This document shows, in pieces, positions 4,875-33,030 of a DNA stretch of 38,837 nt. Below the pieces are notes generated by a model, which worked only from the letters and a program-made list of their open reading frames with translations, did not search any database and had not been told where the DNA came from. Position numbers and translations under genes: made by a program. Every line of letters starts with the position of its first letter. Position 1 is the first letter of the stretch. The DNA comes from an uncultured Clostridia bacterium (GTDB taxonomy: Bacteria > Bacillota > Clostridia > TANB77 > CAG-508), in NCBI GenBank assembly GCA_947624525.1, contig CANQKT010000049.1, positions 1 through 38,837 on the forward strand. Direction: 5' to 3'.

Positions 4875-5031
4875 TCAAATTTAATTATTATGTAACATTG
4901 TAAAATATATTAAGATTCCGTTCGTTTGCTGGCGTGAGGATTTGGGAAAAAGACTTTAGGTGGGGGCGCCAAACTGCGCACTCCACTTCATCTTAATATA
5001 TTTTACAATGTTACATAATAATTAAATTTGA
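4875..5031. repeat. long palindromic element, copy A
   Basis: perfect 41-bp inverted repeat 4875-4915 / 4991-5031; centre ttccgttcgtttgctggcg...cgccaaactgcgcactcca shared in part with copies B and C. Confidence 0.85.
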
Positions 5032-18808: not shown

Positions 18809-19045
18809 TGCAATTAGGAAGTTAATATAAGAATTATGTAAAAGTAGGAAGTATATTAACATTCCGTACGCTTACTGGCTTGTTCTTATCAAAAGGCAAA
18901 AGGGACTTTTTGTTGGAAGAAGGTTTTTGTTTTTGCTTGTCCCTTTTGCGTCTTTTGATAAGCCTCGCCAAACTGCGCGCTTTGTACTCCATTGTTAATA
19001 TACTTCCTACTTTTACATAATTCTTATATTAACTTCCTAATTGCA
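18809..19045. repeat. long palindromic element, copy B
   Basis: 52-bp perfect inverted repeat (18809-18860 / 18994-19045); nested inner hairpin cttatcaaaaggcaaaagggac ... gtcccttttgcgtcttttgataag. Confidence 0.9.
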
Positions 19046-19395: not shown

Positions 19396-19662
19396 ATGCC
19401 TGTAGTATCGCAGTTTTATGGAATAATAATATACATATATAAAAAACTTGGAGGACATCATAATAAACCACATTTGCATGCTAAATATAATGAATATGAA
19501 GCAAGTATAATTATAGAAACAGGTGAATGGGAAGGAAATATGCCACTTAAACAGAAAAAATTAATTGATGCATGGATAGAAATACATAGAGATGAATTAT
19601 ATGCTATGTGGTATGCTTATAATAATGATGGAGAATTAATAAAAATAAAAGGATTGGAGTGA
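19396..19662 (+). CDS. DUF4160 family protein
   Basis: MPVVSQFYGIIIYIY...KPHLHAKYNEYEASIIIETGEWEGNMPLKQKKLIDAWIEIHRDELYAMW. Confidence 0.8.
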   Translation: MPVVSQFYGIIIYIYKKLGGHHNKPHLHAKYNEYEASIIIETGEWEGNMPLKQKKLIDAWIEIHRDELYAMWYAYNNDGELIKIKGLE

Positions 19663-19666
19663 TAGT

Positions 19667-19906
19667 ATGAGACCTAAGGCTATAGATGTTAAAGTTTTAG
19701 ATAATTATGAATTATTAATTAAATTTGATAATAATGAAGAAAAGATATTTGATGTAAAACCTTATTTTGACCATAAGGTTTTTGATGAATTGGTATCAAA
19801 AGATATATTTAATACAGTTAAAATTTCAGGGTTATCAATAGAATGGATAAATGGTGCAGATATTTGTCCAGATGAATTATATAATAATAGTAAAACTGTA
19901 AAATAA
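19667..19906 (+). CDS. DUF2442 family protein (predicted partner of DUF4160)
   Basis: IDVKVLDNYELLIKFDNNEEKIFDVKPYFD...; adjacent to DUF4160. Confidence 0.75.
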   Translation: MRPKAIDVKVLDNYELLIKFDNNEEKIFDVKPYFDHKVFDELVSKDIFNTVKISGLSIEWINGADICPDELYNNSKTVK

Positions 19907-19930
19907 AATGTAAACACTAGGAAAGTGTTT

Positions 19931-19959: not shown

Positions 19960-20044
19960 GAAAAGATTATGAAAACAAGAAATTTATTTCACAGCATATT
20001 GAAATGATTTCTTTTTTTGGTAAATTATTAAAAAAGCAAAAAAG

Positions 20045-20235
20045 TCGTTAAGTTAGCTACTTAATGACTTTTCTATAATTTGATTTTATCATATATTAAT
20101 ATATTTTCAAGTGTTTTTTGAAAAATTTTTATTGTAACTTTTGTATAGGAAAATTTTATATAAAAACTTCCAAAATATTGAAATATAAGCAAAGTTTCTA
20201 ATATGTAAAAAATCATTAAGTAGCTAACTTAATGA
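20045..20235. repeat. putative invertible promoter segment 1: IR-L 20045-20067, IR-R 20213-20235
   Basis: IR-L tcgttaagttagctacttaatga vs reverse complement of IR-R tcattaagttagctacttaatga (22/23 identical). Confidence 0.8.
20083..20110 (-). promoter_or_regulatory. minus-strand promoter inside segment 1 (points away from the downstream gene)
   Basis: on minus strand TTGAAA (20110-20105), 16 nt, TAAAAT (20088-20083), extended -10 TGa. Confidence 0.7.
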
Positions 20236-20318
20236 ATAGATAAGGTGAAAGATATACTGAATATATATGTATAATTACATATTTTAAAAGCTGTAAATAG
20301 TTGGAGGTATTATATAGT

Positions 20319-21605
20319 ATGAAAAGAGATACAAATAAAAAAATACATAATAAAAGATTAAGCATAGTTATTTTTATAATATTAGCAGTAGCTATAGTAT
20401 TAATAGTTGGCTACGCTTATGCAAAATATGTAACATCAAAAAGAGGAGAGGCACAGGCAGAAATTGCTGAGTGGAATGTTTCTATAAATATAGCTGATAA
20501 TACTGATGAAAATGTAGAGATTGATTTAGCAAACACAAGAAATAAAGAAAAAGAAGAAGTTGACGTACAGGAAGGGGTTGTAGCACCCGGAACTGCGGGA
20601 AAGTTTAATATTGAAGTTAACGCAGAAAATAGTGATGTATCTTTAGAATATGAAATCACTATGAATGCAGATTATGGAAATAATGAAAAGTTCCCAAAAA
20701 ATCTCATCTTTTATTCTGATGAAAATATGGAAAATGCATTTTATCATACAGACAATGCAATAGAATTAAATGGTTTTATAAGATATGATGAGAGTAATAA
20801 GAAAAGAACGATACCTATATACTGGAAATGGGCGTATCAAACTGGTGCTACAGACGAGGAAAGAGAGAAAAATGATGGACTGGATAGTGAGTGGATGGGG
20901 AAATCAGTAAATCCATTAGAATTAAAAGTGGTTGCAAGGCAAGTAAATGCAAACCAAGAGGAAAACTCAATGGCAAATCAATATGCAGTAACTCTTGATA
21001 CAAATGGTGGAACTTTAGAAGGCTATGGAAATTCAGAAAAGGTTATTAAGCAAGTAAGTTATGGTGGGCAATATGGAGAATTGCCTACACCAACTAGAGA
21101 AGGTTATACTTTTAAAGGATGGAATGGAAAAAATTTATTGAATATACCAAATACGAAAAAGACATTAAACGGTTTAAATCTAGATATAAGTAATAATACA
21201 TTTCATGTTTCTGGTGCAAATACTAAGAGTGATAAAAATTATGGATTAATTGTATTTGGAACGAATCTTCCAACATTAGAAAAAGGAAAAACATATACTC
21301 TTTCTGTATCTAAAAAATTAAATGGATTATTATATGCACAAGTAAATTACTCAAATAATGGGACGGACACAGGTTTAATAAGCACATCAAATTATGGTAC
21401 TGTTACTGTTCCTGAAAGTTATGTTAAAACGAATAGCTTTTTTATAGGAGTTGTTAAAACTGCAACTGCAATTAATGAACAATTTACAGTCCAATTAGAA
21501 GAAGGAAACACAGCAACTCCACATGAGCCGTATTTTGTAACAGAAAATACTTCCGTAACACAAAACAAAAATCATACCCTAACGGCAATATGGGAAAAAA
21601 ATTAG
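20319..21605 (+). CDS. SipW-type signal peptide surface protein (TasA/camelysin-like) with InlB/Flg_new-type repeat
   Basis: VGYAYAKYVTSKRGEAQAEIAEWNV signal motif; YAVTLDTNGGTLEGYGNSEKV...YGELPTPTREGYTFKGWNGKN; RBS ggagg. Confidence 0.8.
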   Translation: MKRDTNKKIHNKRLSIVIFIILAVAIVLIVGYAYAKYVTSKRGEAQAEIAEWNVSINIADNTDENVEIDLANTRNKEKEEVDVQEGVVAPGTAGKFNIEVNAENSDVSLEYEITMNADYGNNEKFPKNLIFYSDENMENAFYHTDNAIELNGFIRYDESNKKRTIPIYWKWAYQTGATDEEREKNDGLDSEWMGKSVNPLELKVVARQVNANQEENSMANQYAVTLDTNGGTLEGYGNSEKVIKQVSYGGQYGELPTPTREGYTFKGWNGKNLLNIPNTKKTLNGLNLDISNNTFHVSGANTKSDKNYGLIVFGTNLPTLEKGKTYTLSVSKKLNGLLYAQVNYSNNGTDTGLISTSNYGTVTVPESYVKTNSFFIGVVKTATAINEQFTVQLEEGNTATPHEPYFVTENTSVTQNKNHTLTAIWEKN

Positions 21606-21609
21606 AGTA

Positions 21610-21648
21610 AAAACTGAAGAAATTATTATCAAAAATTTCTTCAGTTTA
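21610..21648 (+). terminator. hairpin terminator after SipW-type gene 1
   Basis: aaactgaagaaatt ... aatttcttcagttt then TATTATC. Confidence 0.6.
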
Positions 21649-21715
21649 TTATCATATAATCCATTATTTTATTACAACTTATTTGCCAAATCCAACAAAC
21701 TTTCTCTATCACTAC

Positions 21716-21747
21716 CAATAGACAAGGGAACGGGGTTTTGTCTATTG
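21716..21747. repeat. REP-like hairpin, copy 2
   Basis: caatagacaa-gggaacggggtt-ttgtctattg, perfect 10-bp stem. Confidence 0.55.
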
Positions 21748-21910
21748 AAGAAGTAATCCAAACAAATAAATCATACATAACATAAACAAGTGTGATAAAA
21801 TCATAAAAATTAATGAAGGGATACTATGTAAATGTTTAAAAAATAATAGTATTTCTAATTAATTTATGTTATACTATTACTAGAAATTTTTAAAGAAAGG
21901 AGTTAAACAG

Positions 21911-22123
21911 ATGGCAGATGTCAAACAACGAATGATAGATATTTTTAATTCCGTGCCTAATGATTATTTTGATGGTTTAAAACCTACAGAAATGGTATTA
22001 AAACTTATGATGGAATATATAAAAAGATACGGTGAAGATGAGACAACTATTATTCCGGGTACTGATAAGCATTTCAATTATGAAACACTGAAAGAAATGC
22101 TTAAAAATAAAAATCTAAATTAA
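21911..22123 (+). CDS. small hypothetical protein
   Basis: 70-aa ORF with RBS aaaggag. Confidence 0.5.
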   Translation: MADVKQRMIDIFNSVPNDYFDGLKPTEMVLKLMMEYIKRYGEDETTIIPGTDKHFNYETLKEMLKNKNLN

Positions 22124-22138
22124 AAGGAGGTTATATTA

Positions 22139-22318
22139 ATGGATTTTATGAGAAAAACTTTAAGTCAGGTAAATGTACAAGAAAATACTCTATATGATAT
22201 TATATATGATTTATTTTTCTATGCTGAACTTCAAGAGAGTGAAGATGATATAAAAAATGGTATGGTATGTACGTTAGAAGAATTAACAGCTGAAATGGAG
22301 GCGAAATATGCAAGATAA
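22139..22318 (+). CDS. small hypothetical protein, possibly antitoxin-like
   Basis: 59-aa ORF not in the supplied track (MDFMRKTLSQVNVQENTLYDIIYDLFFYAELQESEDDIKNGMVCTLEELTAEMEAKYAR); RBS aaaggagg. Confidence 0.5.
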   Translation: MDFMRKTLSQVNVQENTLYDIIYDLFFYAELQESEDDIKNGMVCTLEELTAEMEAKYAR

Positions 22319-22693
22319 AAGAACATTTTTTGAAGTACATAAAAGTGAAATTTTTAATTTTTTAAATCATTTTTTTTATTAATTCTTTTTGGATATATTC
22401 CAAACTTATCCCAAATATAAATTCAATATTCATAATATGTTTGTAACTAGATTTCGTTAAAAGAAAATTAAAGCCATAGACTCGAAAGATATACAGAAAA
22501 TTATACATAAGTAATCATATAGAGAAAATTAACTTAAAAAGTATAAAAGACGTTCCATTGTCTACATGGAAAGTTATCGAAAAATAAAATAGTTAAAATT
22601 AAAAGAAGAAATTAAGTGACCAAAGTTATTAGAATAATAGTTTAATAATTTTGGTCACTTTTAATTTATATAGTTATTATAAATTTGATATTT

Positions 22694-22887
22694 TCGTTAA
22701 GTTGCATACTTAATCAATTTCTATACACTTTTATTTTACCATAGATTAATATATTTTCAAGTGTTTTTTCAAAAAAATATTTTAGAAAATTTTGGTGTAC
22801 AAGTTATACATTAAAAATTTTGCAAAGTATTGATATATCAGTAAATTATTGAATTTTAGTATTATCATAAAGTATGCAACTTAATGA
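22694..22887. repeat. putative invertible promoter segment 2: IR-L 22694-22716, IR-R 22865-22887
   Basis: IR-L tcgttaagttgcatacttaatca vs reverse complement of IR-R tcattaagttgcatactttatga (20/23 identical, 15-bp contiguous core). Confidence 0.8.
22733..22760 (-). promoter_or_regulatory. minus-strand promoter inside segment 2
   Basis: TTGAAA-N16-TAAAAT on minus strand, extended -10 TGg. Confidence 0.7.
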
Positions 22888-22971
22888 TAGAACAAACATC
22901 ATTTGTATATGGGAAAAAGTTTTAAAGTATAACAAAGAACATAAAAATACTAAAGTTAAGGGAGAGGTAAA

Positions 22972-24432
22972 ATGAAAAAAGATAAGAAGATAAGATTAAA
23001 TATATTAATTGTATTATCATTGTTAATAATAATACTGGCGTCAACTATAGGCTTATATGCTTGGTCAAAATATACCAGTTCATCTTCAGGCGATGCAACA
23101 GCACAAGTAGCAAAATGGAATTTCAAATTAAAGGGAAATTCTACAGCTGAAGCAGAAAACACAAATTTTGCAGTAACAAGAACAGATAGCAATACATCGG
23201 TAGAAACAGGAAAATTAGCTCCAGGAACAAATGGAAAATTTGAAATGGTAGTAGATACAACAGGGACAGAAGTGTCATTGGTTTATAATATAGTATTAAC
23301 ATTAACAAACTGTCCACAGAATTTATTATTTTATAAAGATGCAGAATATCAAAACGAATTGCCAAAAGTAAGCAATAACGGAGTAGATAAATTATATATA
23401 AAAGAATATGTACCAGTAAGTGAAGATAGTGTAAAAAATGGACAACATAATGAAATTCTTTACTGGAGATGGAAATATGAGACAGGTACAAGATCTTGGG
23501 AGAAAGACAATAATGATGAACAGGATACAAACGATAAAGGAAAAACAATGACAATGAAAATAGTGGCAACAGGAACAGAGGTAATGCAGGAGCCAACATA
23601 TACATTGGAAGAACTGGTAAGAACAGCTAAAATACAAATAGGTGACGAGGTAGATTATAATGCAGTAAAAGAGTCAGGAATATCTCTGACAAATGCAAAT
23701 GACACTACCTATATTGCAACAGCTGACAAGACAGGAAGAAGTGAAAATCAAACTTTTAATGTAGAAAGTAATATGAAATGGAGAGTATTAAGTAGAAATG
23801 CACAAAAAGGAACAATAGAAATAATATCAGAGAATGGTACAACAAATAAATTAGCATTATATGGACAAGCAGGATTTATAAATTCAAAAGAAGTATTAGA
23901 TGAAATAGGAAAAATATATAGTTATGGAGAAGGAGCAGAAGAAGGAAGTGGAAGAAGTATAGATATAGGAGATATAGAAAAATACTCAAGTTATGAGCCA
24001 GAAACTTATTTAAATTCTAAAGTTAATTGCTATTGTGGAGAAACATATACATATAACTCTGGGACTTTTATTAAAGAGCGAATAGATAAAGAAACAGGAG
24101 AAGTAATAGGATATGAAAATCAAACAGAGCAAGCGAGTAGCAATCATCCAGTAACAATGCATGCAACACACTATTGGTATACTGCCCAGAAGAATTTTTT
24201 CGCAAATCAAGAAAAAGCCTACGAAGTGCTATTCAAGAACTCAGAAGGACAAAATAAAAATATTTACTGGCTTGCCTCACGCAGTGTTTTCTTTGACCTT
24301 AGCAGTTGCAGTTTTGATGTGCGCAGTGTGAACGACGGAGTTGTGGCCGGCTACAGCTTGTATAATTCTGACGGAAACAGCAACTACCAACGGTTTTGCT
24401 GTTTGCCCAGTAGTGACACTAAAATTAAATAA
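22972..24432 (+). CDS. SipW-type signal peptide surface protein with C-terminal DGR-target-like (C-type-lectin-like) domain
   Basis: GLYAWSKYTSSSSGDATAQVAKWNF; WRVLSRNAQKGTIEIISE...; ...IYWLASRSVFFDLSSCSFDVRSVNDGVVAGYSLYNSDGNS. Confidence 0.75.
   Translation: MKKDKKIRLNILIVLSLLIIILASTIGLYAWSKYTSSSSGDATAQVAKWNFKLKGNSTAEAENTNFAVTRTDSNTSVETGKLAPGTNGKFEMVVDTTGTEVSLVYNIVLTLTNCPQNLLFYKDAEYQNELPKVSNNGVDKLYIKEYVPVSEDSVKNGQHNEILYWRWKYETGTRSWEKDNNDEQDTNDKGKTMTMKIVATGTEVMQEPTYTLEELVRTAKIQIGDEVDYNAVKESGISLTNANDTTYIATADKTGRSENQTFNVESNMKWRVLSRNAQKGTIEIISENGTTNKLALYGQAGFINSKEVLDEIGKIYSYGEGAEEGSGRSIDIGDIEKYSSYEPETYLNSKVNCYCGETYTYNSGTFIKERIDKETGEVIGYENQTEQASSNHPVTMHATHYWYTAQKNFFANQEKAYEVLFKNSEGQNKNIYWLASRSVFFDLSSCSFDVRSVNDGVVAGYSLYNSDGNSNYQRFCCLPSSDTKIK
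24268..24420 (+). other. putative DGR variable-region-like segment
   Basis: locally GC-rich block dominated by NNC codons (GCC CGC TTC GAC AGC TGC CGC AAC GAC GCC GGC TAC AGC ... GAC AAC AGC AAC TAC) in an otherwise A/T-ending gene. Confidence 0.55.
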
Positions 24433-24558
24433 TCAAATGAATAAAAATGCAGAGGGAGAATGGAAATTAATAAATGCTCAAAACTAAAAGTGAAAAAATA
24501 AAAGATGATAGTGGAATATGTGAGATAATAACCAGATAGAATATCCTGTAAAAAAAGA

Positions 24559-24593
24559 ACTCAAATTATAAATTATTTTATAATTTGAGTTTA
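24559..24593 (+). terminator. hairpin terminator after SipW-type gene 2
   Basis: aactcaaattataaa-ttat-tttataatttgagtt then TATTTTTAT. Confidence 0.75.
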
Positions 24594-24629
24594 TTTTTAT
24601 TTACAGGTTATTTTTAATAAACGAAATTT

Positions 24630-24821
24630 TCGTTAAGTTATTTACTTAATCAAGTTTTCATATTCTTATTTTACCATAGAACAATATTATTTCAATAGTT
24701 TTTTTCAAAAATTTTTTGCGAAAATTTAATAGTCAACTTAGATATTACTAACTCCCAAAATTATTGATATATAAGTATTTTCAATTGTTTAGATAAAATC
24801 ATAAAGTAAATAACTTAACGA
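24630..24821. repeat. putative invertible promoter segment 3: IR-L 24630-24652, IR-R 24799-24821
   Basis: IR-L tcgttaagttatttacttaatca vs reverse complement of IR-R tcgttaagttatttactttatga (21/23 identical). Confidence 0.8.
24668..24695 (-). promoter_or_regulatory. minus-strand promoter inside segment 3
   Basis: TTGAAA-N16-TAAAAT on minus strand, extended -10 TGg. Confidence 0.7.
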
Positions 24822-24897: not shown

Positions 24898-26358
24898 ATG
24901 AATACAGACGAAATAAAAAAGAAAAATAAAATATTAAAAGTTATTGTGATATTAATTATATTGATATTACTTGTTTCCTTAATAGGATATGGTTGGGCAA
25001 GATATATCAGTTCAAAAGAGGGTGATGCTACTGCTCAAGTAGCCAAGTGGAGTTTTAAGGTGGTAGATGGAGTACCTGAAACAGAAGATGTGCTTGATTT
25101 TGCAATTACAAGAACGGATAGTAATAATGAAGTAAAAGAAGGAAAATTAGCACCAGGAACTTATGGTGAATTTAAGATAGAAATTGATGCAACAGGTACT
25201 GAAACAAATTTGACTTATGAAATAATGATAAATCTTAAAAATAAGCCTAAGAATTTGAAAATTTATAAAGATAAAAACAAAAAAGAAGAAATAAATGTAG
25301 AAAATAATATGTTAGATATAAAGAAATTTCTAACATATACTGATGCACAAACAGTACAAACAGAAATGTTATATTGGTCTTGGCCTCTTGAAACTGGTAG
25401 TACACAAGAAGAAATTGATGAAAATGATATTGAAGATTCAAAGTCTATGAATCAAACTATGTCAATGGAGATTGCTGTAACTGGAGTGCAAACAAATTCT
25501 ACAGGAGGAAATATTGTGTATGGTGGAAATGGTGCTACATCAGGGGGAATGTTTAGTGAAGTGGTAGTGGATAATGAAAATACGAAGTTGGCTGATAATG
25601 CTTATAAGAGAGAATATATAGTGAAGTTAGATGCTGATGAGGGAGAAGTTGAAAATAATGAATTGTTATCAAAATATCAGTTTTCTCATTGGAGTACAAG
25701 TAATAAAAATGAAAATGTTCTTTTTTATAGTCCTAAAGAAGTGGATGTTGATAATGATGCTTTTAATAGCAATAGAAGTGAATTTATGCAATATGAAGAT
25801 TTAGCACCCTATATAGATAATAATGGTTTAGGAAAATATTATTTAAGTTTTGATATTAAATCTGAAAATGTAGATAATAATTCTGGAGTACTAGTTTATT
25901 TCCAAAATGGTAGTAATTCTAAATATAAGTTGTGGAAAGATGAAAATTCTGAAATTAGTGGTGTTTCGGTTAATGTTACAACAGAATATCAACATAAAAA
26001 TTTAAATGTGTATGTTACTAATAACGATTTAGCAGAAACAAAAGCAATGTTAGCATTTTATGGAACATATCATACAGAAAATTATCCAGTAGTAAAAAAT
26101 GTAACATTTGACATAGGAGGTGGATATGAAAATAAACAAGAGGTACAAAATGAAATATTGAAAAATGCAGAAGGAGGCAATATAAATTTATATGCAAAAT
26201 GGATACCACAACCTGTTAAATTACCAACTCCAACAAAATCTGGGTATACATTTTTAGGTTGGTACACAGAAAAAGAGAATGGAACAAAAGTTGAGAATAC
26301 AAATTCATATATTCCAACAAAAGATGTTACTCTATATGCCCATTGGCAGCAGAATTGA
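24898..26358 (+). CDS. SipW-type signal peptide surface protein with InlB/Flg_new-type repeats
   Basis: IGYGWARYISSKEGDATAQVAKWSF; C-terminal KLPTPTKSGYTFLGWYTEKENGTKV...DVTLYAHW. Confidence 0.8.
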   Translation: MNTDEIKKKNKILKVIVILIILILLVSLIGYGWARYISSKEGDATAQVAKWSFKVVDGVPETEDVLDFAITRTDSNNEVKEGKLAPGTYGEFKIEIDATGTETNLTYEIMINLKNKPKNLKIYKDKNKKEEINVENNMLDIKKFLTYTDAQTVQTEMLYWSWPLETGSTQEEIDENDIEDSKSMNQTMSMEIAVTGVQTNSTGGNIVYGGNGATSGGMFSEVVVDNENTKLADNAYKREYIVKLDADEGEVENNELLSKYQFSHWSTSNKNENVLFYSPKEVDVDNDAFNSNRSEFMQYEDLAPYIDNNGLGKYYLSFDIKSENVDNNSGVLVYFQNGSNSKYKLWKDENSEISGVSVNVTTEYQHKNLNVYVTNNDLAETKAMLAFYGTYHTENYPVVKNVTFDIGGGYENKQEVQNEILKNAEGGNINLYAKWIPQPVKLPTPTKSGYTFLGWYTEKENGTKVENTNSYIPTKDVTLYAHWQQN

Positions 26359-26490: not shown

Positions 26491-26513
26491 TCGTTAAGTT
26501 ATATACTTAATCA
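26491..26513. repeat. orphan left-type inversion site (fourth copy)
   Basis: tcgttaagttatatacttaatca matches the IR-L consensus; no intact partner before lepA. Confidence 0.65.
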
Positions 26514-26741: not shown

Positions 26742-28556
26742 ATGAAAGATAGAAAACAATTCATCAGAAATTTTAGTATAATAGCACATATTGATCATGG
26801 AAAATCAACTTTAGCAGATAGATTAATAGAAATGACAGGTGTACTTTCAAAACGTGAAATGGAAAGTCAAGTTCTAGATAATATGGATATAGAGCGTGAA
26901 AGAGGTATCACAATAAAATCTCAAGCAGTTCGTATGTTGTATAAGGCTAAAGATGGAAATGAATATGAATTTAATTTAATAGATACACCAGGACATGTTG
27001 ATTTTAATTATGAAGTATCAAGAAGTTTAGCAGCATGTGATGGTGCAATTTTAGTTGTGGATAGTAGTCAAGGTGTGGAGGCACAAACACTTGCAAATGT
27101 GTATTTGGCATTAGATAATAACCTAGAAATTTTGCCTGTTTTAAATAAAATAGATTTACCTAGTAGTAGACCTGATGAGGTAAAAAATGAAATAGAAGAT
27201 ATAATAGGAATTCCTGCCCAAGATGCACCTTGTATTTCAGCAAAAACAGGGCTAAATGTAGAACAAGTTTTAGAGAGAATAGTTACAGATATACCAGCTC
27301 CAACAGGTGATGAAAATGCAAATTTAAAATGCCTAATTTTTGATTCTTTATATGATAATTATAAAGGTGCATTAGCTTATGTTAGAGTTAAAGATGGAAC
27401 AGTAAAGGTCGGAGATGAAATTTTATTAATGGCATCAAATAAAGTTTTTACAGTAACAGAAGTTGGATATTTTGAGCCAGGTTCTTATGTTCCAACTGAG
27501 AAGTTAGAAGCGGGAGAAGTTGGATATATAGCAGCTAGTATAAAAACTTTATCAGATATAAGAGTAGGTGATACAATCACTTTAAAGGACAACCCTGCAA
27601 CTGAGCCATTACCAGGATATAAAAAAGTAAATCCTATGGTTTATTGTGGATTATATCCAATGGATGGAAGTGAGTACGAAAATTTAAAAATAGCACTAGA
27701 AAAGTTGAAATTAAATGATGCAGCATTAGAATATGAACAAGAAACATCAGCAGCATTAGGCTTTGGATTTAGATGTGGATTTTTAGGATTATTGCATTTA
27801 GAGATTATTCAAGAAAGATTAGATAGAGAGTTTGATTTAGCACTTATAACAACATCACCTTCTGTTATATATAAAGTACATAAAACAGACGGCGAAATAC
27901 TTGAATTGTACAATCCATCAGAATTACCACCACCAAATGAGATTTCATATATAGAGGAACCTTTTGTATCAGCAGAAATAATCACGCCTAAAGATTATGT
28001 AGGAGGTATAATGGAAATATGTCAAAACAGGCGTGGAATATATATAGATATGAAATACTTAGATGCTAACAGAGTAACATTAGTATATGAACTACCATTA
28101 AATGAAATAATATATGATTTCTTCGATAGTTTAAAATCAAAAACAAAGGGATATGCTTCATTTGATTATGAATTCAAAGAGTATAAAAAATCAGATTTGG
28201 TTAAATTAGATATTTTAGTAAATGGTGAAAATGTTGATGCACTATCTTTTATAGTTCATAGAAGTAGTAGTTATGAAAAGGGTAAAAAAATGGTAGAAAA
28301 GTTGAAAACAGTAATACCAAGACAATTATTTATTATCCCAATACAAGCAGCCATAGGAGGAAAAATAATTGCCAGAGAAACTATATCAGCAATGAGAAAA
28401 GATGTTTTGGCTAAATGCTATGGTGGAGATATTACTAGAAAGAAAAAATTACTAGAAAAACAAAAACGTGGAAAGAAAAAGATGAGACAGATTGGTAATG
28501 TTGATATTCCACAGGAAGCATTTTTGAGCGTACTTAAATTAAATGATGAAGATTAA
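26742..28556 (+). CDS. lepA: elongation factor 4 (LepA)
   Basis: [23 protein letters not shown]; full-length EF4 architecture, C-terminal [43 protein letters not shown]. Confidence 0.97.
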
Positions 28557-28600: not shown

Positions 28601-29188
28601 ATGAAAATAGGGATAGATTTAGATGGAGTAGTGTTTAATACAGAAATGCTATGGTCAGCTTATGCGGAATTGTATGACTGTATTGAACTTAATCAAAATA
28701 GTATAATAAATAAAAATGCAACAATAATTCAAGAAAAATATGATTGGACAGAAGATGAAACAAATATATTTTTTGATAGATATGCAGATATAAAGGATTT
28801 TGACATTATGCCAGGGGCAAAAAAAGTAATTAATTTGTTGAAGAAAGATGGACATGAATTAGTGGTTATAACTGCTAGAGGCACTGTACAAAACCAAAAA
28901 CAAGGAGAAGATATAGCATTTTACAGGCTTGAGAGAGAAGGTATAAAATTTGATAAATATTATTGGAAGCAAAAGAACAAATTAGAAACATGTCAAAAAG
29001 AAAAAATTGATATTATGATAGATGATAATTATAGTATTTGCAAAACATTAATAAAAGGGAATATTCCAACAATTTATTTTCATTCTTTGAATAGAGAACA
29101 TATTCAAGAAAGTGAAAATGTAAAAGAGGTTACAAATTGGGGGGAAGTATACAGATATATAAGAAGTAAAGAGAGAGTGAAAGAATAA
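28601..29188 (+). CDS. HAD-superfamily 5'-nucleotidase-like protein (NT5C-type)
   Basis: [15 protein letters not shown] motif I, VVITARG, IMIDDN. Confidence 0.75.
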
Positions 29189-32100
29189 TGGGAGTAGAAT
29201 TATTAGAGCACAATCAACGTGCCTATGATGAAGTGAAAAAATTGTACGAACAAGGAAACAGAGCTGCAGTAATACATCCAACAGGAACAGGAAAAAGTTT
29301 TATAGCTTTAAAATTAATAGAAGAGAATAAAGATAAAAAAGTAGTTTATTTATCATCAGGGGTGCCTATTCTTAATCAATTAAAAAGGAATATGATAGCT
29401 TCTGATGTACATTGTGAAAAATTAAAAAGAATGACATATCAAAAACTTACACTTATGAATGAAGCTGAAAAAACGGATTTAGAAGCAGACATTATAGTTT
29501 TAGATGAATTCCATCATTGTGGTGCACCAGAATGGGGAAAAGCTGTAGAAGAATTACTATCAAATAATCCAAATGCAAAAGTTCTTGGGCTTTCTGCTAC
29601 ACCAATGAGATACTATGATGACTCAATAAGAGATATGGCAGAAGAATTGTTTGATAATTGTGTTGTATCAGAAATGTCATTAGAAGAAGCTATTACTTCA
29701 GGAATACTACCAGAACCAGAGTATACTGCAGGATTTTATGAATATAGTGAAATAATAAGTCAGTTAGAAGAAAAGATTAATAAATGTACAGATCCTGAGA
29801 AAAAGAGACTAGCAGAAGAAGAAATTGAAAAATTAAGAAATATGCTAGAGGCAAGTGTAAGTGGTTTGCCAGAATTACTGGAAAATAGTATGACTAATAA
29901 GTCAGGTAGATATATTGTATATTGTAGAGATATTGAAGATATGCAAAAGAAAATGTCAGAAGCACAAAAAATGTTTGAAAAAGTAAATCCAAATATGGAA
30001 ATAATGAGTGTATCTAGCAGCGAAGAAGATATTAGAAAAAATGCAAGTACAATTAGAAAATTTGAAAAAGATAGTGATGATGGAAAATTAAAATTGCTAT
30101 TTTCAGTAAATATGTTAAATGAAGGATACCATTTACCAAAATTAGATGGAGTTATAATGATGAGACCAACACATTCACCAACATTATATTATCAACAACT
30201 AGGTAGAGCAATGACAGTTGGAGAAGTGAAAAAGCCTGTAATAATTGATTTAGTTAATAATATTGATTCAATAGAAATTATGCAAAATTTTAGTAAATCA
30301 TTAGAGCAAGAAAGAAGAAAAAGAAATAAAACTGAAAGTAAGTCTAGAATAGGATTTTCAATCTCTAAAGAAACAAGAAATGCAGAAGAAGTAATAAGAA
30401 AAATAGAAGACTTTGTAAAAAGAGAAAAAACCGATATAAGTAATGAAGAAAAGTTAAGATTAATGCTGGAGTATATGGAGAAAACAGGAGAAAAAATTTC
30501 GTTTGATACGCAGTATGAAGGCTATCGCATAGGTTATTTTAAGTCAAATTTAAGACAAATGTATAGAAACGGAACTTTAAATATTAGTGAAGAATTATTA
30601 CAAAAGTTTATTGAAAGTGGAATTATAATTGAAGGAAGAGAAAGACGAAATCAAACTACTCAACAAGAAAAATATGAATTTCTTATGCAAATGGTAGGGA
30701 AGACTCCAGAAGAAATTGCAAGTGCTAGAATGAGAAATGGAATGTCTGTAAAAGAAGTACTAAAAATCCTTAGAAGTGAGATTAATAGAGGAAAAAATAG
30801 TTTAACTCAAAAGCAAATAAAAGAACTAAAAGCAGAGAAATTTTTAAAATTATCTTCAGAAGAAAAAAGTGAATTAGCAAAAAAATATGGATTACCTGAA
30901 AAATATGCAGTAAAAGCAGATGAAATATGGAATTCAAGAGAGGAGTTTATGAAAGCTTTTAAAACTGCTGGGGATATTTCAAAAGATAGCCCAGAAAATC
31001 AGCTATTTAAAGAAATTTCTGAAATGAAACAATCTAAATTTTTTCATGGACCAAGAATACTTACCATATCTTCTAAAGATATGACTGAAAGGAAAAAATT
31101 AATGTATGCAAAACTACTAAGTGATGTTTTTCCAATAGACATAAATAAATTTGATAATTCTTATTATTTTGATATTGATGGAGTAGATGAAGCTATATCT
31201 ACATTAAATGAACAAGAACAAAAAACAGTAAAAATGAGGAATGGACTTGATGGAGGTAAAGTATATACATTTGAAGAAACCGGCAAAGAGCTAAATATGA
31301 GTAAAGCTCGTTGTGCACAAATTTATGCAAAAGCAATAAGACGATTACAGAATCATAGTAGATTATCTAAAATAATAAGAGATGTAAGTGATATTCATAA
31401 ATTAAAAGAAGGATATGAAGGAATAAAACAAAATAGAGATGATATTTCTAAAATAATAGAAATTTTGGGTAAATTACAAAAACATATAATTGAAAATGGA
31501 GAAACAGATAGTATAGATGAAATTGAAAGTAAAATACGTGAAATTTCTGATAATGATATAGATTTGCCAAAAAGTCTAGAAAATAATACTGACTCAAATT
31601 TAACTATAGAAGAGCTTGATTTAAGTGTTAGATCATATAATTGCTTATATAAAGCAGGAATAAGAACTTTAGGGGATTTAATGTCTAAAAGTGAAAATGA
31701 AATTAGAGTGATGAAAAATTTAGGCCAAAAAAGCTATGAAGAAATATTAGAAAAAATAAAGAAATATAAAAATCCAATAATCAAGATATTGTTAATATCT
31801 GATAATAATGAGCAAGAAAGAAATGAATTAAATGATGATAAAGAAGATGATGAAGTTGAAAAACAAAATGATGTAAGAATAGAGGAACTTGATCTAAGTG
31901 TTAGAACATATAATTGTTTATATAGAGCGGGAATAAAAACTTTAGGAGATTTAATGTCTAAAAGTGAAGAAGAATTTAAAAAAATAAAGAATTTAGGCAA
32001 AAAAAGCCATGATGAGATATTAGAAAAATTAAAAATGCATGGAATCGGATTAGGTGATGGTGAACAAACTGAAAAACCAAAAAAATTTAATGCTAAATTC

Positions 32101-32376
32101 TTTGATGAACGAATAGAATTTTGTGAAAAAACAAAAAGTAAAATGCAACATGAGTTAGAGGAAAAAATGAAAGTAGTAGAAGAAAAAATGGAAATATATA
32201 ATAGTGCAATGGATTTTTACCTAAATGAAGAAGATATATTTAATCCAGATGCAATTATTCCTGGTATAGAAAGATTAAGAAAGATAAAAAGAGCCAAGGA
32301 TTTAATAGAACTAAATGCGGAACAAGATAAGGTGATAGAAGGATTGGAATCTCAAAAGAAAGGAATTGATCGATGA
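29188..32376 (+). CDS. SF2 DEAD/DEAH-type helicase fused to sigma-region-4-like HTH and two tandem RNA polymerase alpha-CTD-like domains
   Basis: [139 protein letters not shown] and its repeat. Confidence 0.85.
31606..32035 (+). repeat. intragenic tandem duplication encoding two alpha-CTD-like domains (~31606-31761 and ~31879-32035)
   Basis: high nucleotide and protein similarity; offset 273 nt (in frame). Confidence 0.8.
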
Positions 32377-32815: not shown

Positions 32816-33030
32816 GTCAAATTCAATAGTTATGTAAAAGGGAGAAATATATTAACATTTCGTACGCTTACTGGCTTGGACTTATCAAAAGGCAAAAGGG
32901 ACTTTTATATAGAAGAAAGTAAACTTTTATGTTTGTCCCTTTTACTTCTTTTGATAAGCCTCTCCAAACTGCGCGCTTTGTACTCCATTGTTAATATATT
33001 TCTCCCTTTTACATAACTATTGAATTTGAC
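32816..33030. repeat. long palindromic element, copy C
   Basis: 41-bp perfect inverted repeat 32816-32856 / 32990-33030; central ~130 bp nearly identical to copy B. Confidence 0.9.

Follow-up and report, generated by a model that had tools for sequence, protein, structure and literature searches.

Promoter inversion, tyrosine invertases and master recombinases all have precedents. Inversion of the fimS element of Escherichia coli involves short repeats and accessory proteins. In Clostridioides difficile, the cwpV and flagellar switches combine ~21-bp imperfect inverted repeats, segments of 154–195 bp and the tyrosine recombinase RecV in the control of surface structures; cwpV is mostly OFF (about 5% ON), and the two RecV switches have no recognisable sequence identity to each other (PMC2784873, PMC5386303). 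A Clostridia “inverton group 139” and a tyrosine “invertase group 35” have been published, with both orientations of the group 139 segments present in reads and some orientations linked to surface-attached growth (PMC11892184). Here, we analysed a 38,837-nucleotide (nt) stretch of DNA (hereafter the window; contig C49, CANQKT010000049.1) from the 1.39 Mb draft genome of an uncultured Clostridia bacterium (GCA_947624525.1), in which three consecutive SipW-type surface-protein genes are each preceded by a putative invertible promoter element. As in fimS (FimB/FimE), the promoter lies within a segment that would be moved by a tyrosine recombinase (PMC2784873, PMC9993118), but fimS is one 314-bp locus whose invertases are encoded next to it (PMC9993118, PMC2784873). 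The C. difficile flagellar repeat, AAGTT(A/G)CTAT(A/T)TTACAAAAAA, is likewise unlike the TTAAGT-N5-ACTTAA site found here (PMC2784873, PMC5386303).

Judging from the sequence evidence, these elements very probably belong to a multi-gene ON/OFF bank of invertible promoters that is driven by one recombinase and is OFF by default. The arm coordinates and segment lengths (191, 194 and 192 bp) of the original prediction proved accurate (Table 1), with 22/23, 20/23 and 21/23 matching arm bases in elements 1, 2 and 3. From the end of the right arm to the start codon (ATG at 20319, 22972 and 24898) the distance is 83, 84 and 76 nt, in agreement with the ~76–84 bp first estimated. Inverted-repeat clusters of this quality and spacing number 13 in the window, unrelated long hairpins included, compared with an average of 0.03 across 100 Markov-shuffled windows. 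Each pair of repeats encloses the TTGAAA-N16-TAAAAT promoter with TGN extension that had been proposed, judged as a promoter by its consensus and conservation: the motif TTGAAA-N13-TGN-TAAAAT has exactly three copies in the whole window, one per segment. All three promoters are on the minus strand and face away from their genes, so that all three elements are OFF in the assembly. An Rfam search gave no match at the elements.

The arms themselves have the build of recombinase core sites. Each approximates TCRTTAAGT-N5-ACTTAAYSA, a palindrome of opposed 9-bp half-sites around a 5-nt spacer, and the putative crossover is identical in partner sites: the spacer varies between loci (TAGCT, TGCAT, TATTT, TAGGT, TAGAT and TAAAT in this genome), yet is the same, in inverted register, in both arms of one element. 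No spacer mismatch occurs in the nine pairs of this genome, versus 14.9 expected with arms permuted (P = 2e-5). Half-site mismatches in these nine elements number 14. When 98 pairs are pooled, drawn from relatives as well as from this genome, positions 10–14 hold one mismatched base in 490, versus ~274 with arms shuffled among loci; position 15 is also mismatch-free and position 9 almost so, and positions 2, 3, 21 and 22 mismatch within 13–28 pairs. Such a pattern is the footprint to be expected of a 5–7 nt strand-exchange region. The implication is that each element's arms recombine with one another or are under constraint to match.

Two such sites 130–160 nt apart were then sought in 84,980 species genomes, which yielded 90 matching stretches, 80 of them retrieved. 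One Neobacillus match aside, the records with elements are metagenome-assembled genomes (MAGs) of uncultured Clostridia, Bacilli or Eubacteriales; many bear the label “Lapin”, and several come from the guts of chickens and ruminants. The Neobacillus match (L116), whose spacers differ, was rejected as a chance match, as were L137, L245, L246 and L248, and the arm-pair pattern search of viral contigs found none. Spacers were equal in 79 of the 82 elements analysed, and the end of the -10 box lay 14–17 nt from the arm in 85/89 promoter calls; the promoter is conserved in nearly all homologous segments of relatives.

Orientation could be called for 65 elements, nine of them from this genome, with 59 OFF and 6 ON. 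Three ON elements (L118, L142 and L141) align well with an OFF paralogue from the same genome only when reverse-complemented (identities of 0.79, 0.79 and 0.71 versus 0.62, 0.59 and 0.58 unflipped), a comparison independent of the promoter calls; paralogue support is weaker for L164 (0.69 flipped versus 0.62), and L107 and L119 have weaker promoter calls. Because three ON elements match OFF paralogues well only when flipped, inversion has most likely happened in the families of these relatives, with a strong OFF bias among assemblies. Both orientations are thus seen among paralogues in relatives; the species studied here is represented by one assembly, all OFF.

Within this genome, six further complete elements were found on contigs C6 (two), C30 (three) and C22 (one), giving nine complete elements, all OFF, and one half element; the counts come from BLAST and pattern searches that could miss diverged elements, and nine is a lower bound. 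Every one of the nine precedes a gene with the same SipW-type N-terminus, and their promoters are nearly identical. Other SipW-type genes of the genome (C18 and C19) had no such element in the sequence checked, and the 15 regions upstream of SipW-type genes checked in genus relatives held only one, a diverged element (G010:C22, L087 2757–2950). One locus on C19 (L080, 151–8138) comprises five SipW-type genes with near-identical N-termini in alternating orientation and without TTAAGT elements, which could recombine via their common 5' ends.

Comparison of the open reading frames (ORFs) near elements with the tyrosine recombinases of this genome singled out a candidate enzyme with close relatives near elements, a 323-amino-acid (aa) protein of the Tn1549-Int-like subfamily (G000:C1:17697-18665) whose nearest solved relative is Tn1549 Int. 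Its gene sits between those for YebC and diacylglycerol kinase, the ORF is intact, and the catalytic R164, K208, H272, R275, H298 and Y308 are conserved in 30 family members. Homologues (38–58% identity, E <= 1e-46) are present in 20/23 other element-bearing genomes, but in about 8/143 genomes of the bacterial family that lack strict-pattern elements (Fisher p ~1e-15, with 10 counted). The co-occurrence comparison covered two recombinases of this genome, and the close matches of the control, L036, are in G010 and, of the other element-bearing genomes, in G022, G025 and G035 only. Moreover, in four genomes (L194, L196/L100, L206/L143 and L219) a matched-spacer element lies at most about 200 bp downstream of a candidate-family gene. 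An R-K-H-R-H-Y tyrosine recombinase is thereby linked to the sites through co-occurrence and through adjacency in relatives. Together with the pair-matched spacers and the flipped paralogues in three relatives, this adjacency lends support to the ON/OFF promoter-inversion array of the original prediction. In L201 (G018), L206/L143 (G029), L207/L218 (G034) and L225 (G153), genes of the recombinase family carry a +1 frame change that splits them at one common position, the LTG motif at about residue 240. The lineages affected number at least three and differ in local sequence; the split may be a programmed frameshift, a slippage switch or decay.

Legible in the sequences are the promoter cassette, the core sites, the spacer matching and, in relatives, flipped paralogues and the adjacency and co-occurrence of the recombinase; from these we infer that inversion is active in this species, by the candidate enzyme acting in trans. 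In the mechanism we propose, each segment would serve as a cassette carrying the promoter, inverted by a tyrosine recombinase through strand exchange between both arms, each arm comprising two 9-bp half-sites around a crossover of 5 nt (at most 7 nt). In the assembled orientation, the strong extended -10 promoter would fire away from the gene and an upstream hairpin terminator would shield it, and for both reasons the gene would be silent. After inversion, transcription would start roughly 110–120 nt before the start codon and the surface protein would be ON, transcription tracking orientation. The one Tn1549-Int-like recombinase could serve all nine elements, while locus-specific spacers, as putative addresses, would guide each arm to recombine with its own partner.

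Several observations weigh against such a bank. The element-bearing genomes are related, and the co-occurrence counts are therefore not independent. The candidate gene adjoins no element in this genome, and its subfamily is absent from the element-bearing G021, G024 and G037 and from G067, which has a related six-element bank. Some spacers are common to several loci (TAGCT, TGCAT and TAGGT each occur twice in this genome, and the pool has 13 cases of ACAAT), and for that reason locus addressing by spacers could be only partial. Finally, nine of nine elements are OFF in a single assembly, and a locked array would look the same; the chance of 0/9 ON at the ON fraction of relatives is 0.42, however, so the all-OFF bank does not contradict default-OFF switching.

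The four genomes without the candidate subfamily, together with nine serine recombinase genes in this genome, would also suit a bank flipped by another recombinase (XerC/D-like, the XerA-like enzyme of C38, or one of nine large serine recombinases). This alternative concerns the enzyme only and overlaps with our explanation, and we consider it unlikely given the adjacency of candidate-family genes in four genomes, their strong co-occurrence with elements, the close matches of the control in only three other element-bearing genomes, and a 9-5-9 site that suits a Tn1549-type tyrosine recombinase. A lower probability still goes to elements that flipped once and are now locked OFF in this lineage, as remnants of a non-working inversion system. 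The uniform OFF state, the decay of one element to a half (window 26491–26513) and a recombinase gene not adjacent to the elements here would fit, but the recombinase ORF is unbroken and keeps every catalytic residue, the spacers match perfectly in nine of nine pairs despite half-site divergence, and all nine promoters are nearly identical. Drift would be expected in long-locked arms.

The original prediction had named cwpV as a precedent, which holds in that cwpV is a C. difficile surface switch; the mechanism differs, as the cwpV promoter lies outside the inverted segment (PMC2784873) and the conserved promoter here lies inside. A cwpV-like inversion, with the promoter upstream and the segment as a switchable terminator, could draw on arms that can form hairpins (the left arm of element 1 scored terminator-like) and on a size and arm length resembling the cwpV switch (PMC2784873), yet is very improbable in view of a strong promoter at a fixed arm distance in nearly all elements across genera and a terminator-like hairpin 5' of each window element. 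Least probable of all are repressor-bound operator dyads around a fixed antisense promoter, without inversion, for although the arms are 23-bp dyads and all elements of this genome share one orientation, an operator would not require spacers that match in inverted register and differ between loci, flipped paralogues exist, a tyrosine recombinase gene stands beside elements in four genomes, and no gene is placed to use the promoter in its assembled orientation.

Less can be said of the proteins behind the promoters. The label “SipW-type” was given for the appearance of the signal sequence and is provisional; the target proteins have an N-terminal domain in common (32–45% identity), for which an AlphaFold model from the window's own three sequences (mean predicted local distance difference test score 71.6) gave a signal/transmembrane helix followed by a beta-rich domain. 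The modelled beta-sandwich matches TasA (5of1) with Z 5.0 and a root-mean-square deviation of 4.2 over 137 residues, tied with unrelated beta-sandwich folds, and no TasA/camelysin hidden Markov model matched in Pfam or NCBIfam at E 0.1, nor in NCBIfam at E 5. The TasA/camelysin-like character that was originally assigned therefore has weak support. Protein-based searches with gene 2 found no relatives in genome or viral contigs. For the C-terminal regions encoded by gene 2 and its paralogues, diversification by a diversity-generating retroelement was considered and rejected, as the genome has no reverse transcriptase (PF00078) and no template repeat. In relatives, the genes after the elements, where identifiable, mostly have a prepilin-like N-terminus (GITLIALVITIIVLLILAGV), and one behind an element in a Bacilli MAG appears SipW-type. 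The prepilin-like proteins at L112, L126 and L163 carry a C-type-lectin/FGE-like tail (RGGG...GFR) resembling diversity-generating retroelement targets; no convincing reverse transcriptase was found in the loci examined around them. The six elements of G067 (L247, L251, L254 and L257) have TCCTTAAGT-type arms with matched and all-different spacers.

Table 1. Features of the three putative invertible elements and their surroundings in the window.
Feature	Position	Strand	Details
Invertible element 1	20045–20235	-	191 bp; promoter directed away from gene (OFF)
Element 1, left arm	20045–20067		TCGTTAAGT-TAGCT-ACTTAATGA; spacer 20054–20058
Element 1, right arm	20213–20235		Spacer TAGCT in inverted register, 20222–20226
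Element 1, promoter	20083–20110	-	TTGAAA-16-TAAAAT, extended -10 TGA; -10 end to arm 15 nt
SipW-type surface-protein gene 1	20319–21605	+	428 aa; Listeria-Bacteroides repeat domain
Terminator-like hairpin 5' of element 1	19975–20020	+	-10.4 kcal/mol, z -2.1; modest versus shuffles
Invertible element 2	22694–22887	-	194 bp; OFF; arms 22694–22716 / 22865–22887; spacer TGCAT 22703–22707 / 22874–22878
Element 2, promoter	22733–22760	-	TTGAAA-16-TAAAAT, extended -10 TGG
SipW-type surface-protein gene 2	22972–24432	+	486 aa
Intrinsic-terminator-like hairpin 5' of element 2	22614–22660	+	-22.8 kcal/mol, z -8
Invertible element 3	24630–24821	-	192 bp; OFF; arms 24630–24652 / 24799–24821; spacer TATTT 24639–24643 / 24808–24812
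Element 3, promoter	24668–24695	-	TTGAAA-16-TAAAAT, extended -10 TGG
SipW-type surface-protein gene 3	24898–26358	+	486 aa; Listeria-Bacteroides repeat
Terminator-like hairpin 5' of element 3	24556–24600	+	-18.1 kcal/mol, z -5
Orphan left arm (decayed fourth element)	26491–26513		TCGTTAAGT-TATAT-ACTTAATCA; without right arm or promoter; 3' of gene 3, 5' of gene at 26742

Elsewhere in the window, long perfect inverted repeats at 18809–19045, 32816–33030 and 4875–5031 (arms of 53, 42 and 42 bp; loops of 131, 131 and 73 nt) have short motifs in common, and long hairpins near SipW-type genes also occur in a genus relative (L085 and L088). Upstream of element 1 (19396–19907), a DUF4160/DhiT-like toxin gene, scoring under the NCBIfam threshold, is followed by a small reading frame, and the two are possibly a toxin-antitoxin pair. 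A 1062-aa protein encoded at 29188–32376 joins helicase, sigma-70 region 4 and RNA polymerase alpha C-terminal domains.

If the switchable bank is real, it amounts to a surface-protein wardrobe of an uncultured gut bacterium that is kept mostly OFF, and would define antigenic or adhesin switching in uncultured gut Clostridia on a par with capsule switching in Bacteroides; its recombinase would be named, and its site could be searched for (TTAAGY-N5-RCTTAA pairs). With this site rule, assemblies suffice for cataloguing switches, and any metagenome can be scored for their orientation, which makes host-driven ON/OFF selection testable; the candidate enzyme, together with its 23-bp sites and their exchangeable 5-nt spacers, might also find use as a set of independent DNA switches. 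We tentatively put forward a more specific model that we hold to be possible rather than probable, in which the spacers are addresses and one master tyrosine recombinase of conjugative-transposon integrase lineage flips each dispersed promoter independently, the chromosome not being rearranged. Through the OFF bias, a cell would usually show none or one of the nine proteins, and the same chassis would serve two unrelated secretion classes (SipW-type and prepilin-like) in uncultured gut Clostridia.

Among the papers searched, none joins SipW with invertible promoters. A group close in taxonomy and enzyme is inverton group 139, also from Clostridia and with a tyrosine-type recombinase near the invertons; the main text on it mentions neither SipW nor pilin, and overlap with the bank described here is possible (PMC11892184). 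The sites resemble those of Tn1549/Tn916-type integrases in their AT-rich inverted half-sites around a 5–7 nt crossover; for Tn1549 Int these are 11-bp inverted repeats around a 5-bp crossover, with crossovers of 5–7 nt in circular intermediates (PMC5871717). Unlike Tn916-type enzymes, which tolerate crossover mismatch, the arms of a pair match here, and unlike this integrase type the candidate has no separate arm-binding domain in a Pfam search and is located between core genes. A functional parallel is Mpi of Bacteroides fragilis, a single master recombinase that flips many segments in trans, surface loci included, as is proposed here; Mpi, however, is a serine recombinase, its targets include polysaccharide loci, and its repeats have a common 10-bp core consensus (PMC5386303, PMC5903667).

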